Positions 4,808 through 9,433 of a stretch of DNA of 64,000 nt are shown here, one piece after another. Position 1 is the stretch's first letter. Each line of letters opens with the position of its first letter. Both the position numbers and the translations under genes were made by a program. Origin of the DNA: Pseudomonas fluorescens (GTDB lineage: Bacteria > Pseudomonadota > Gammaproteobacteria > Pseudomonadales > Pseudomonadaceae); NCBI RefSeq assembly GCF_000730425.1, contig NZ_CP008896.1, positions 5,022,001 to 5,086,000 on the forward strand, read 5' to 3'. The notes below the pieces were generated by a model that ran no database searches, had not been told where the DNA came from, and saw only the letters and a list, made by a program, of their open reading frames with translations.

Positions 4808-5179
4808 TTAACGGCTGGCTGCCAGGGTAATCGAAACCGACTCGGCAAAGCGCAGCGCATGGGGCTTGTCGACTTCGACTTCGGCATACAGCACCGATTC
4901 ATTGCTCATCACCAGGTCCAGCAACTCCTGGGTCAGGCGCTCAAGCAGGGCAAAGCGGTTGCCCTCGACGTGGGCGATGATGGCCTTGGTGATGGTGCGG
5001 TAGTTCAAGGCGTGGTCGATATCGTTGTCGCGCACGGCGTCTTGTGCGGCATACAGGATGGTCAGGTTGATCAACACATCTTGCTTGTTGAGGATCTCAT
5101 CCTCGTTGATGCCAATGAAGGTGCGCAGACACAGGTCCTTGACCCGGATACGCGCCATACCTGGTTGAAGTTGTGGCAT
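4808..5179 (-). CDS. folX: Dihydroneopterin triphosphate 2'-epimerase FolX
   Basis: 123-residue member of the dihydroneopterin aldolase/epimerase fold. It converts dihydroneopterin triphosphate to dihydromonapterin triphosphate, the first dedicated step to tetrahydromonapterin. Features are [19 protein letters not shown] at the N-terminus, [10 protein letters not shown] in the middle and the [16 protein letters not shown] strand that carries the pterin-binding region. FolX rather than FolB is preferred because of the length (E. coli FolX 120) and the adjacent folM. The start at 5179 has GGAG at nine bases; a longer in-frame extension to 5257 would run into folM and lacks a ribosome site. The minus-strand order is folM then folX. 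Confidence 0.85.
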
Positions 5180-5234
5180 TGCTACTTGCTCCGTCCAATC
5201 AATTGCAGGAACCCCACGCGGCTGGTGTTCGGGT

Positions 5235-5945
5235 TTACTTGACATGCCGCCCGCCATTGACGGTCAGGGTGGTGCCGGTCACATAAGGGTTGTCCAGCAG
5301 GTAACGCAGGCTCTGGTAAATCACTTCGGCGCCGGGCTCGATACCCAGTGCTGACTTGGCCAGGACCTTGGCGCGATAGGCCGCGTCGTCGCCGTCGTTG
5401 AACATCACCATGGCTGGCGCGATGCCATTGACCTTGATCCGGGGCGCGTATTGAGCGGCGAAGGACAGGGTCAGGCTGTCGAGCCCGGCCTTGGTGGCAC
5501 AGTAGGCGATGTGCTGGCGGCTACCCTTGCGGGTCACGTCGTCGCTGATATGCACAATGTCGGCTGGCGTCGAGTGTCTTAGCAAGTCAGCACAATGCAG
5601 GTTGATCAGGTACGGCGCAAGCATGTGCACACTGAACATATCGATAAAGGCGTTGGCCTCGTCCCCCGGTGTTTCTGCGGCCCAGGTCGAGGCGTTGTGG
5701 ATGATCGCCCGCAGGCTGTCGGTATGGGTCTTGAGTTCGCTGATGAACGCCAGGATACCGGCCTCGCAGGAAAAATCGGCAAATACGCCAATCGCGCCAC
5801 GCTCGCGCAAGGCCTGCACGCCGGGACGTTCACTGCGATAGCTGAAGATCACCGGCTGCTGTTCATCCAGCAGGCGCAGGGCACAGTGCAGGCCGACACG
5901 TTGGCCGGCGCCGGTGATCAGGATCGGGGCGGGGGTGGAGGTCAT
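5235..5945 (-). CDS. folM: Dihydromonapterin reductase FolM
   Basis: Short-chain dehydrogenase that reduces dihydromonapterin to tetrahydromonapterin with NADPH. 236 residues with the SDR cofactor motif in the FolM form (TGAGQRVG, arginine in place of a middle glycine), the NAS/NAG-equivalent HNAS, the active-site YCATK and a C-terminal NGGRHVK. Established work in E. coli and P. aeruginosa shows FolX and FolM act together to make the pterin cofactor of phenylalanine hydroxylase. The start ATG at 5945 matches the conserved [12 protein letters not shown] opening. A TATAGT -10-like sequence lies just upstream, without a good -35. Confidence 0.87.
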
Positions 5946-6006
5946 GGCAGGCTCGGGTCGCGGGCAAGCCAAAACTATACCAGCGACCGGCCTGTAGCGG
6001 ACCGGC

Positions 6007-6567
6007 TTAAACGGTTGCTTCGGCAGGTTTTACCCGTCGCGGGGCCGGATTGAGCCAGCCTGCCAGCAAATGGGTCGACAGCGGAATGAACAGATAGACC
6101 ATCAAGGGCGTCAGGGCCAGGGTGCTGACCAGCACGCGGCTGAACAAGCCCAGTTCGGCCAATAGCGGTTCCAGGCCGAAGTTGAACAGCAGCGACACCG
6201 GGAAAAACGCCAGCCAGATCGCCACGGCCTGTTTCCAGCGCGGTGGGCGCTGGCCCGCCGCACCAAACCAGCCTTCCATGCCGCTGACGCGATGCTCCAT
6301 GGGGTCTGCGAACAATTCGCTGCCGCGCCCGAGCCAGGCGCTGCGCGAGGCAGAGAACTCCCAGGCATGCAGGGTCTGCTCGTCGGCGAAGCGGAAGATG
6401 ATCTGGAATTCGCCACCGTCGGCAGGCGGTGCAAGCACGCCTGAACCCAGGTAGCCGGGGAAGTCAGTGGCCAGTTGCTCGCCTTCGCGCAGCCAGCTCA
6501 TCATGTCCTGATAACGGCCTTGGGCCGCGCGGCGCGCAACCATCAAGGTGACGGGGAGGGTAGACAT
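6007..6567 (-). CDS. Antibiotic biosynthesis monooxygenase-fold membrane protein
   Basis: 186-residue protein. The first about 95 residues look like an ABM/YgiN-type ferredoxin-like alpha-beta domain (PVTLMVARRAAQGRYQDMMSWL, then GYLGSGVL and FQIIFRFADEQTLHAWEFS). Two membrane segments follow at about 115-135 and 143-168. This ABM-plus-two-helices form is common in proteobacteria but has no assigned reaction. GGAGA precedes the ATG. It is divergent from the MerR-type regulator at 6781, across a 213-base region with a palindrome that could be the regulator's site, so it is a candidate target of that regulator. Confidence 0.7.
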   Translation of the reverse strand: MSTLPVTLMVARRAAQGRYQDMMSWLREGEQLATDFPGYLGSGVLAPPADGGEFQIIFRFADEQTLHAWEFSASRSAWLGRGSELFADPMEHRVSGMEGWFGAAGQRPPRWKQAVAIWLAFFPVSLLFNFGLEPLLAELGLFSRVLVSTLALTPLMVYLFIPLSTHLLAGWLNPAPRRVKPAEATV

Positions 6568-6754
6568 TGTGTATCTCCGAATGTGTGGGGGCGCTGCACC
6601 GGGTAGGTGGCGTCCCTGGCGAGGCCGCAGGGTAGGGCGGCGACGCAAAAAAACAGGCAAGGATTATTCCTGATTTGACGAAATACGCCAGCGGCATTGG
6701 ACGGCTGGGCAGATCCCTTGAAAAAGACAGGTATAAAAGCGTTATATGGGATCC

Positions 6755-6769
6755 AACTTCGTACAAGTT
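6755..6769. promoter_or_regulatory. Palindrome in the divergent promoter region, candidate LitR-type operator
   Basis: AACTTCGTACAAGTT, arms AACTT/AAGTT around CGTAC, sits 11 bases before the MerR-type start codon. A plausible sigma-70 pair lies just upstream (TTGAAA at 6719, TTATAT at 6743, 18 bases apart). MerR/LitR proteins bind TGTACA-like palindromes, and autoregulation from such a site is common. Assignment to this regulator is inferred from position only. Confidence 0.4.
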
Positions 6770-6780
6770 TTGGTCATTCG

Positions 6781-7740
6781 ATGCCTGTAACCACAGCCCT
6801 TTCCCCTGGTCTTGAGCATGGCGGTCTATCCGCCGCGGATGAGTTGTTCCCGATTCGTGAAGTCGCAAGATTGACAGGTATCAACCCGGTTACCCTGCGC
6901 GCGTGGGAGCGTCGCTATGGTTTGATTCAGCCGGTGCGCACCGAAAGCGGGCATCGCCTGTACACGCAGAAGGACATCGAGACCGTTCATCGCATTCTGG
7001 ATTGGATCGAGCGTGGCGTGGCGGTCAGCAAGGTCGGCAAGATCCTCGCCCGGGACAATGCGCAAGTGTCTTCACTGCAGCACCTGCAGGAAGGCAGCGG
7101 CCATCACGAGTGGTCCCAGTGGCAGCAGCAGTTGCAACTCGCCATCGGCGCGTTTGATGAGCTGCAACTCGAGCGTCTGTATGGGCAGGTCTTTGCGGCG
7201 TACCCCGCTGCAGTCGCGTTCCAGGACATCCTGATGCCCCTTTGGCGTCAATTGTTGCGGCATCAGGGGCGTTTTGGACAAGCCAGCGAATGGTTGTTTT
7301 TCGACAGTTTCCTGCGTGCGCGGATTTCCCAGCGCCTGCAACTGGCCCGCGCTGGCCGCACGCCGCAGGTACTGCTGGCGGCCATTGCCGGCGAGTGCCG
7401 AGAACTGGAATTGCTGGTGGCGGGGCTCATGCTCAGTGGTGACGAACTGGCCGTTCATGTGCTGAACGTGGGCCAGCCCCTGGATGAGTTGACACTGATC
7501 TGCGAGAAGACTCGCCCGCAGGCGCTGGTGCTGTTCTCCAACCGTTCACCAACCCATGAGTTGCCCAAGCGGTTGGCGCGGTTGGCCCTGACCCTGGAGT
7601 GCCCAGTGCTGCTGGCCGGTGATGCCTCGGACATGGCAGAGCAGCCACTGGCCGGTACTGCCATCGGCTGCCTGGGCAATGAGGGACGGTTGATGCAACG
7701 GCGCTTGCAGCAGTTTCTCGGGGGAACCCTGGATACCTGA
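6781..7740 (+). CDS. MerR-family regulator with B12-fold domain, class II LitR type
   Basis: Transcription regulator of 319 residues. The N-terminal MerR winged helix (FPIREVARLTGINPVTLRAW, then GHRLYTQKDIE) is at about 20-90. A helical-bundle domain and a Rossmann-like domain of CarH/LitR type follow. The cobalamin ligands of CarH are missing: where a D/E-x-H-x-x-G motif would lie there is ECRELE, and the EH of the helical bundle is replaced (ASEWLFFD). This matches class II LitR proteins, which in P. putida control light-inducible genes together with a LOV protein. The start ATG was chosen at the conserved MPVTTAL; the Shine-Dalgarno sequence is weak. Its neighbours are a LOV photoreceptor and a PilZ-like gene, convergent. 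Confidence 0.8.
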   Translation: MPVTTALSPGLEHGGLSAADELFPIREVARLTGINPVTLRAWERRYGLIQPVRTESGHRLYTQKDIETVHRILDWIERGVAVSKVGKILARDNAQVSSLQHLQEGSGHHEWSQWQQQLQLAIGAFDELQLERLYGQVFAAYPAAVAFQDILMPLWRQLLRHQGRFGQASEWLFFDSFLRARISQRLQLARAGRTPQVLLAAIAGECRELELLVAGLMLSGDELAVHVLNVGQPLDELTLICEKTRPQALVLFSNRSPTHELPKRLARLALTLECPVLLAGDASDMAEQPLAGTAIGCLGNEGRLMQRRLQQFLGGTLDT

Positions 7741-7742
7741 GA

Positions 7743-8348
7743 TCAGGCATGCACTTCGGGGTGGGCCAGGCGATGCTGTTGCAGGATGAACTGGCGCAGG
7801 CGCTCGGTTTCATCCACATCGCCCTGGCTCAAGCGGTAGGCAAACAGGCCACGGGCTGTCTCGCGCTCCAGCGTGCCACGCACGGCAATCCGCTCGTAGC
7901 CGGAGGGGCTGAACCACATCGAGAAGGTCCGAGGTGGTTTGCTACGGCCACGGGCCTGCACCAGCAGGCCCTTGAATGACACTTCATGCACCCATAGCGC
8001 ACCGGGCTGGCCCCTGACATTTTCCAGGGCCACCGGCTCTTCGAGCACCAGGCGCCAAGGCCGGATCATCGGTCCATCCTCGAAAATGCTCGGGACGCCC
8101 AGGCGCAGGTGCAGCGTGTGAAACTCGTCCTCTACCAATTGCAGGGGAAAGGTCATCTGCTGGTTATCGAACTGCGCCTGGATTGTCACTTGTTCATGGG
8201 CCGCCAGACGCGTGAGCAAGTCGCGGATCTGCGCGCCACCGTTGACCGTCAGGCTCGACGACACATCCCGCACATTCAGTTGCGGGTTGTGGTGCATAGT
8301 CTGGATGAAGTCCAGTTCGTCCTGCGTCAAAAGCGCGTCGCGTTGCAT
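7743..8348 (-). CDS. YcgR/PilZ-like protein
   Basis: 201-residue soluble protein. Residues about 30-85 resemble the YcgR N-terminal domain, and 95-195 resemble PilZ: RPWRLVLEEPVAL then EVSFKGLLVQ, ending with VRGTLE and LRQFILQQH. PilZ proteins bind cyclic di-GMP through RxxxR and D/NxSxxG. Here the pair reads RPWR and ExSxxG, so both motifs deviate and binding is uncertain. It lies 58 bases downstream of the LOV gene on the same strand, probably cotranscribed, and convergent with the MerR regulator (stop codons two bases apart). It could tie light sensing to motility or surface behaviour. The domain call rests on motif reading. Confidence 0.55.
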   Translation of the reverse strand: MQRDALLTQDELDFIQTMHHNPQLNVRDVSSSLTVNGGAQIRDLLTRLAAHEQVTIQAQFDNQQMTFPLQLVEDEFHTLHLRLGVPSIFEDGPMIRPWRLVLEEPVALENVRGQPGALWVHEVSFKGLLVQARGRSKPPRTFSMWFSPSGYERIAVRGTLERETARGLFAYRLSQGDVDETERLRQFILQQHRLAHPEVHA

Positions 8349-8406
8349 TGATGTGGCTCAAGGAAATGCGTGAGTGAACTGATTATCACCCTAAAGACCG
8401 TGTTTT

Positions 8407-8874
8407 CTAAAGTTTGTTAGATCCGCTCGTCGCTCGGAGTGCTGCCAATTCGGCTGTAAGCTGCGCCACTTGGGCTTCCAGCTGCGCCACACGCAGCTGG
8501 GCCTTGACCTGGAGCGTTACGTCTTTCTGTACGCCGACGAAATAAGTCTGCTGATCGGCCGGGTTGTAAACCGTCGATAATGACAGTTCATTCCAGAAGT
8601 GCGTGCCGTCCTTGCGGTAGTTGCGCAGGATTTCCCGGCACGCGCCGCCACTGTCCAGGGCTTCACGGATGGCCATCAGGGCTGGCTGGTCACGGTCGCC
8701 CGACTGCAGGAAGCGGCAATCCTGATAAAGGATATCGTCCAGGGCGTAGCCGGTCATGCGTTCAAAGGCCGGGTTCACGTAAATCAGCGGCTTGTCCTGG
8801 CCTTCCCGTTCCGCCACGACGATCCCGTCGTTGGAGGCGTTGACCACCATTTGCATCAGCTTGGCGTTGATCAT
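8407..8874 (-). CDS. Short LOV blue-light photoreceptor
   Basis: 155-residue LOV protein closely resembling the P. putida short LOV proteins (PpSB1-LOV type). A PAS core carries the photoactive cysteine in YQDCRFLQ, falling at residue 53 when counted from MINAKL, the position of the adduct-forming Cys53 in that family. ASNDGIVVAE, NYRKDGTHFWNEL and the YFVGVQKDVT strand with its flavin-contacting glutamine are all intact. A C-terminal coiled coil (about 120-145) serves dimerisation; no effector domain is fused. The start at MINA has GGAT at seven bases; an in-frame ATG four codons earlier lacks a ribosome site. It is divergent from the flavodoxin gene. Confidence 0.9.
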   Translation of the reverse strand: MINAKLMQMVVNASNDGIVVAEREGQDKPLIYVNPAFERMTGYALDDILYQDCRFLQSGDRDQPALMAIREALDSGGACREILRNYRKDGTHFWNELSLSTVYNPADQQTYFVGVQKDVTLQVKAQLRVAQLEAQVAQLTAELAALRATSGSNKL

Positions 8875-8977
8875 TGAGCGATCCATGGCTTGTTTATGGA
8901 ATGTTTAGTGTAAGACAACCCTCCCGGCGGCCAACTGTTAATATCCCAGGCTTTCACTCAACTACAGGATCAGATTG

Positions 8978-9433
8978 ATGAAAGTCGCCATCCTTTCCGG
9001 CTCGGTCTATGGCACGGCAGAAGAAGTTGCCCGCCACGCCATGGATATCCTCAACGCTGCCGGTTTCGAGGCCTGGCATAACCCGCGGGCGACCCTGGCC
9101 GATGTGCAGGCCTTCGCTCCGGACGCCTTTCTGGCCGTCACTTCCACCACCGGCATGGGCGAGCTGCCGGACAACCTGATGCCGCTCTACTCGACCCTGC
9201 GCGACCAACTGCCCGCCGCCTGGCGCGGTCTGCCGGGAGCGGTGATCGGCCTGGGGGACGCCAGCTACGGCGATACCTTCTGCGGTGGCGGCGAGCAGAT
9301 GCGCGAGCTGTTTGGCGAACTGGGCGTGCGCGAAGTGCTGCCGATGCTGCGCCTGGATGCCAGCGAAAGCGTCACTCCTGAAGCGGATGCCGAGCCTTGG
9401 CTGGCAGAGCTGGTCACGGTACTGCGCGGCTGA
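8978..9433 (+). CDS. Flavodoxin (MioC-like)
   Basis: 151-residue flavodoxin that carries single electrons on FMN. The phosphate-binding loop SGSVYGTAEEVA is at about 7-18; the isoalloxazine-contact loops are TSTTGMGELPDN and GLGDASYGDTFCGGG. Length and loops match short-chain flavodoxins and MioC. The ATG is preceded by AGGAT; an in-frame TTG one codon earlier is not needed. It is divergent from the LOV gene across 103 bases. The redox partner is not visible here. A stable hairpin follows the stop. Confidence 0.88.
   Translation: MKVAILSGSVYGTAEEVARHAMDILNAAGFEAWHNPRATLADVQAFAPDAFLAVTSTTGMGELPDNLMPLYSTLRDQLPAAWRGLPGAVIGLGDASYGDTFCGGGEQMRELFGELGVREVLPMLRLDASESVTPEADAEPWLAELVTVLRG

Follow-up and report, generated by a model that had tools for sequence, protein, structure and literature searches.

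A short LOV photoreceptor and a class II LitR regulator beside a PilZ-like gene in Pseudomonas fluorescens: a further member of a known Pseudomonas light-response system

Introduction

How should a locus be read in which genes for a short LOV protein, a class II LitR regulator and a PilZ-like protein lie side by side? We consider this question for a stretch of 64,000 nucleotides of the Pseudomonas fluorescens contig NZ_CP008896.1 (positions 5,022,001 to 5,086,000; hereafter the window), in which the three genes occupy positions 6697 to 8886. The closest described system is that of P. mendocina NBRC 14162, where pmlR2, PME15565 and pmSB-LOV are found together with folM, folE and folX, and Maruyama and colleagues describe the pmlR2-PME15565-pmSB-LOV cluster as conserved in Pseudomonas (PMC9758184). 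The core idea is therefore already published. Their main text makes no mention of PilZ, and PME15565 is presumably the PilZ-like gene, judging by its position.

In P. mendocina, the illuminated LOV protein associates with the N-terminal helix-turn-helix (HTH) part of PmlR2 in gel filtration, inhibits PmlR2 DNA binding in surface plasmon resonance experiments, and lifts repression in vitro (PMC9758184). Light changes the expression of pmlR1 6-10-fold, of phrB 27-33-fold and of ufaM 25-33-fold; the values are 2.4-2.5 for folM, 1.4-1.5 for pmlR2, and 0.9-1.1 for pmSB-LOV (PMC9758184, Table 1). PmlR2 also binds the folM promoter, which carries TGTACA-N12-GGTATA (PMC9758184). P. putida KT2440 likewise uses class II LitR repressors (PplR1-3) and short LOV proteins (PpSB1-LOV and PpSB2-LOV), and has a RudS-PplR1-PhrB cluster, PP_0739-0741 (PMC9758184, PMC11417400). 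It has three LitR and two short LOV proteins, whereas the genome studied here encodes two LitR and one short LOV.

The P. fluorescens locus resembles the PmSB-LOV/PmlR2 system in having a gene between the short LOV and the class II LitR genes, FolM and FolX nearby, and the adduct cysteine at residue 53 of the LOV protein; elsewhere in the genome there are paired TGTACA operators with a TTGACT-N16-TATGAT promoter. It differs in its fol genes: folE accompanies folM and folX in P. mendocina, while here folX overlaps folM and the LitR site before folM is eroded. The locus is thus a further member of the known Pseudomonas LOV/LitR system, and the core reading is one already in print. We propose, with a probability of roughly 85%, that it consists of an ordinary LOV/class II LitR anti-repressor pair beside a nearly universal PilZ-like gene that is an older resident of the region.

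Results

The original prediction, made by a reader of the DNA alone, had placed the genes of this locus at positions that open reading frame (ORF) and family scans bear out. The LOV gene (8407..8886, minus strand) encodes 159 amino acids from its first ATG and carries the adduct cysteine at residue 57 when counted from there; alignment with the best PDB relative, 7yx0_A (E 2.9e-88), suggests that the native start is the next ATG, at 8874, from which the cysteine is residue 53, as had been predicted. Pfam and NCBIfam scans found PAS/LOV similarity only and no output domain, which agrees with the prediction. A LOV core of 155-159 residues with the adduct motif CRFLQ and no effector domain identifies the protein by its sequence as a short LOV photoreceptor, with a predicted blue-light adduct and photocycle. 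CRFLQ is kept in 129 of the 133 LOV proteins from such loci, and the other four (CRFMQ, CRLLQ) retain the cysteine. Some LOV matches contain in-frame stops (G118, G127, G206, G242 and others; also L151). In L183 (G127) and L184 (G242) these stops sit 3-4 residues before the end, so the LOV tail is merely shorter there.

The LitR gene (6697..7740, plus strand) more likely starts at the ATG at 6781, judging from where its relatives align, which gives a protein of 319 amino acids. The predicted MerR/B12-fold regulator stands as far as MerR is concerned (MerR_1, E 8.1e-16), while its B12-binding_2 similarity (E 0.055) remains below the Pfam cut-off. The Pfam scan found no B12-binding domain. This combination of a MerR HTH, a B12-binding_2-like region that is sub-cut-off, and no B12-binding domain is that of a class II LitR. 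The best solved relative is CarH. Two CarH histidines contact B12, and of the 120 rows in the LitR alignment, 119 have Trp at the first of the corresponding positions and 114 have Arg at the second, where five keep His. The gene is convergent with the PilZ-like gene, their stop codons being separated by 2 bases.

Which of the three genes travel together? The order LitR (plus), PilZ-like (minus), LOV (minus) is found in all of the best 80 of 533 LOV-anchored relatives, and it is not a chance arrangement. As these closest matches are biased to near kin, we surveyed 298 genomes of the genus, requiring E<=0.001 for the PilZ-like gene, E<=1e-50 for a strong LOV, and E<=1e-60 for a LitR orthologue. 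A LitR orthologue is present in 263 genomes and a strong LOV in 262; a further 12 have only a weak LOV match (1e-28 to 1e-33), and 24 have none at 1e-25. LOV and LitR occur together in 260 genomes and are both missing from 33; LOV is alone in two (G090, G141) and LitR in three (G185, G222, which is 73% complete, and G275), giving a Fisher p of 5e-38. Nine of the LitR orthologues, each from a LOV genome, fall in an intermediate score range (1e-62 to 1e-79), and in the worst case 11 LOV genomes rather than 2 would be without LitR. The PilZ-like gene accompanies 256 of the 262 strong LOV genes and is equally present in 34 of the 36 genomes without one, leaving 6 genomes with LOV only and 2 with neither (Fisher p 0.25). 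Both p values are descriptive, the genomes being related and kinship uncorrected. LOV and this LitR are therefore encoded and inherited together, with weak kinship-corrected support. The proposed test of three-gene co-occurrence succeeds for LOV with LitR; it says little about the PilZ-like gene because that gene is present in 290 of the 298 genomes. The survey thus separates a coupled pair from its neighbour.

On a tree of flavodoxin from 90 loci, among which LOV-less genomes were enriched, at least 11 changes are needed to explain the distribution of LOV, 9 that of LitR, and a single one that of the PilZ-like gene. Among 34 loci without a strong LOV (24 with no LOV and 10 with a weak match elsewhere), 31 have neither LOV nor LitR within the 1.5-kb flanks, three (L025, L121, L138) keep LitR, and all 34 have the PilZ-like gene beside the flavodoxin gene. 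Conversely, the PilZ-like gene is gone from L176-L180, where LitR and LOV are adjacent between the ABM and flavodoxin genes; these are five of the six genomes with LOV but no PilZ-like gene, G143 being left out. In L025 (G185) and L121 (G222), LOV is lost, yet what appear to be its final codons still precede the PilZ-like gene; these losses of LOV therefore look recent.

Where might the LitR protein bind? Class II LitR proteins recognize operators of the form T(G/A)TACA-N12-TGTA(C/T)A, and the published LitR pattern has no match with two or fewer mismatches in the locus. There are four such matches in the window, none of them before position 15.8 kb, against 1.6 expected, and 9 of 100 shuffles reach at least four. 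Exact sites number three in the genome. Two of them, starting at 5004191 and 5004241 and so offset by 50 bp, form a paired operator (genome 5004191-5004264) 24 kb to the left of the locus. This pair precedes a gene with the make-up of RudS (2-thiouracil desulfurase-DUF1722), the paralogue LitR2, and a photolyase (PhrB), with additional genes as far as a CMAS (UfaM-like) gene. Inspection by eye shows TTGACT-N16-TATGAT in the same stretch, matching the promoter arrangement described for P6650. The third exact match, at 1547951, lies inside an ORF and was set aside as probably due to chance. When one mismatch is permitted, the genome count is 15 against 16 for the control; therefore only exact or paired sites are informative. 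Across the genus, the paired pattern occurs somewhere in 199 of the 298 genomes and its reversed control in none.

The PilZ-like gene (7743..8348, minus strand) lies 58 bases downstream of the LOV gene on the same strand, as originally stated, and PilZ-like and LOV matches are separated by 59-71 bases, stop codon included, in 111 loci. The label given to its product fits the family, although the window protein alone cannot show membership: Pfam and NCBIfam scans of that protein gave no match, to PF07238 or otherwise. Of the 96 relatives in the alignment, in contrast, 29 are recognized by PF07238 at E<=0.01, and three of ten scanned relatives (L149, L165, L167) exceed the cut-off at residues 94-189. 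A PDB profile search with the alignment gave 0 matches. Profile comparison with the genome's own four PilZ domains gave a weak match (probability 4.2, E 0.0098) in the expected register, in which the ExSxxG of this family aligns with (D/N)xSxxG.

The motif of PilZ c-di-GMP (cyclic di-GMP) receptors is RxxxR together with (D/N)xSxxG, and neither part is kept here. The family instead shows an invariant RxxR and mostly ExSxxG: G92, R96 and R99 are invariant in the 96-row alignment, position 95, where RxxxR has its first Arg, keeps R in 16 rows and is Ile in the window protein, and at position 122, which corresponds to the Asp of (D/N)xSxxG, 88 rows have Glu. This alteration is not universal, since some LOV-less relatives outside the alignment (e.g., L137) carry Asp there. 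On these residues, we predict that the protein binds c-di-GMP weakly or not at all.

A DNA element near GACGAACGG-N4-AAC, at window positions 8423-8431, coincides in part with the final codons of LOV. The element stands ~67-88 bp ahead of the PilZ-like start in most LOV loci, meets the LOV stop in distant relatives (by eye), and precedes the PilZ-like gene in loci such as L121-L126, L134, L135 and L169-L175. Of the 133 LOV loci, 96 match it at 8-9 of 9 positions, as do 10 of the 34 LOV-less loci, against 2.6% of base shuffles, these rows being related to one another; two of the ten LOV-less loci look like LOV remnants. GACGAACGG-N4-AAC may serve the PilZ-like gene as a promoter element and in this way shape the tail of LOV. 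A search for further copies in the same genome, with a pattern that missed the window's own copy, gave 2 at three mismatches against 5 for the control.

Discussion

The anti-repressor system that had been predicted from P. putida is the right one, and its mechanism is published (PMC9758184). By analogy with the species in which that mechanism was shown, and given the same genes, operator and promoter layout here, we propose the following. In the dark, class II LitR would occupy paired TGTACA-N12-TGTACA operators and silence sigma-70 promoters. Under blue light, a bond would form between the LOV cysteine and flavin mononucleotide (FMN), and the lit LOV protein would bind the HTH part of LitR, inhibiting its binding to DNA and allowing transcription from these promoters. 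The clear candidate target in this genome is the RudS-LitR2-photolyase operon rather than the neighbouring genes, and we infer that this LOV/LitR pair acts on its operator.

Several observations weigh against this reading. In the P. mendocina work, gel shift showed a super-shifted complex rather than lost DNA binding, and the two-hybrid signal was alike in dark and light (PMC9758184). Only four independent LOV changes on the flavodoxin tree are supported; LitR changes the same way in 3.7 of the four and the PilZ-like gene in 0.0, and with so few changes the tree agrees with the survey table but cannot reach significance. In L160, L167, L168 and L170, LitR lies 2-3 kb from LOV or on another contig. 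Finally, the paired operator occurs in 17 of the 36 genomes without a strong LOV, compared with 182 of the 262 with one (p 0.013).

Sixteen genomes (G018, G028, G053, G103, G109, G126, G148, G180, G188, G189, G194, G228, G234, G258, G279 and G290) have the paired operator without a strong short LOV or the LitR orthologue, and in each of them there remains a single, weaker LitR-like match. Such retention of the operator in genomes without a short LOV raises a testable question: what relieves their LitR?

Could the PilZ-like protein be a working part of the switch? The original prediction had added a PilZ output to it, and one may imagine a three-gene module in which lit LOV acts on both LitR and the PilZ-like protein and so ties light to a c-di-GMP lifestyle. 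The closely spaced, same-strand LOV and PilZ-like genes speak for such a module. In P. putida, we take PP_4629 to be a short LOV gene, in which case PP_4630 would correspond to the LitR studied here. Mutants of P. putida that lost a colony phenotype dependent on c-di-GMP included one with a transposon in PP_4630, a gene whose annotation is that of a MerR regulator (PMC4951495). Provided that PP_4630 is indeed this LitR, the result is the best outside support for a PilZ output. The module nevertheless appears unlikely, as the PilZ-like gene is equally common with and without a strong LOV, and its motif is altered. The open-licence literature that we searched yielded no link between PilZ, LOV and LitR. 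A promoter scan of 5900-9100 gave two promoter-like matches before the PilZ-like gene against 0.7 expected. The gene is unlikely to be dedicated to the switch, and may share a transcript with LOV without LOV requiring it.

A variant that we regard as similarly improbable would give the switch a third partner in the PilZ-like protein, which would modulate it and link it to a second messenger by a route other than canonical c-di-GMP binding, in keeping with the family's RxxR and ExSxxG; separately, in the 16 genomes with the operator but neither LOV nor this LitR, some unknown light input would act on the LitR-like regulator that is left.

The locus had also been predicted to be a self-contained light switch, regulating its own neighbours folM, ABM, LitR and LOV. 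The light induction of P. mendocina folM and the binding of PmlR2 to its promoter lend this idea some weight (PMC9758184), as do sites upstream of folM in relatives. In 76 of the 86 sequences having folM and ABM, the best site has one mismatch in 7 (L070, L074, L176-L180), two in 7, and three to six in 62, these being counts without a shuffle control. In the window, however, the folM site (CGCTACAGGCCGGTCGCTGGTATA, 5976..5999, minus strand) has lost its left half and has six mismatches to the consensus; as for the GGTATA half, its conservation may only reflect a -10 box. Among the closest 80 relatives, only L070 and L074 have a one-mismatch site anywhere in the fetched stretch. An intact operator inside the locus was accordingly rejected as a candidate. 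With pmlR2 and pmSB-LOV changing only 0.9-1.5-fold in light (PMC9758184) and the paired operator 24 kb away, we consider a switch acting on its own neighbours unlikely.

That LitR itself senses light through B12 in the manner of the class I CarH, with LOV incidental, draws on its MerR and weak B12-binding_2 similarity, on CarH as its best solved relative, and on the description of class II LitR as B12-dependent (PMC11417400), but we reject it as very improbable since the two CarH histidine positions are replaced in nearly all 120 rows, LOV and LitR co-occur, and B12 is not needed in P. putida (PMC9758184).

Other features of the locus

The pair and the PilZ-like gene are flanked by conserved neighbours. 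On the outer side of LOV lies the predicted flavodoxin gene (8975..9433, plus strand), whose product belongs to the PRK05723 family and exceeds the NCBIfam cut-off for NF004343. On the other side, the ABM-like gene (6007..6660, likely start 6567, minus strand) had been described as encoding a membrane ABM protein: its product does have hydrophobic stretches in the C-terminal part, whereas its PF03992 match (E 0.0023) falls below the Pfam cut-off. Beyond it are folM (5235..5972, minus strand), encoding a dihydromonapterin reductase (NF005066, over the NCBIfam cut-off), and folX (4808..5257, minus strand), encoding a dihydroneopterin triphosphate 2'-epimerase (NF008418, over the cut-off); folX directly overlaps folM, and the next ORFs scanned do not encode FolE. 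Rfam and tRNA scans of the window gave no match. Between the ABM and LitR genes, an inverted-repeat-like stretch, AAACAGGCAAGGATTATTCCTGATTT, spans window positions 6651-6676. Its core, AAGGATTATTCC, is present in 65 of the 80 closest relatives, and it is possible that this stretch is an operator or a leader.

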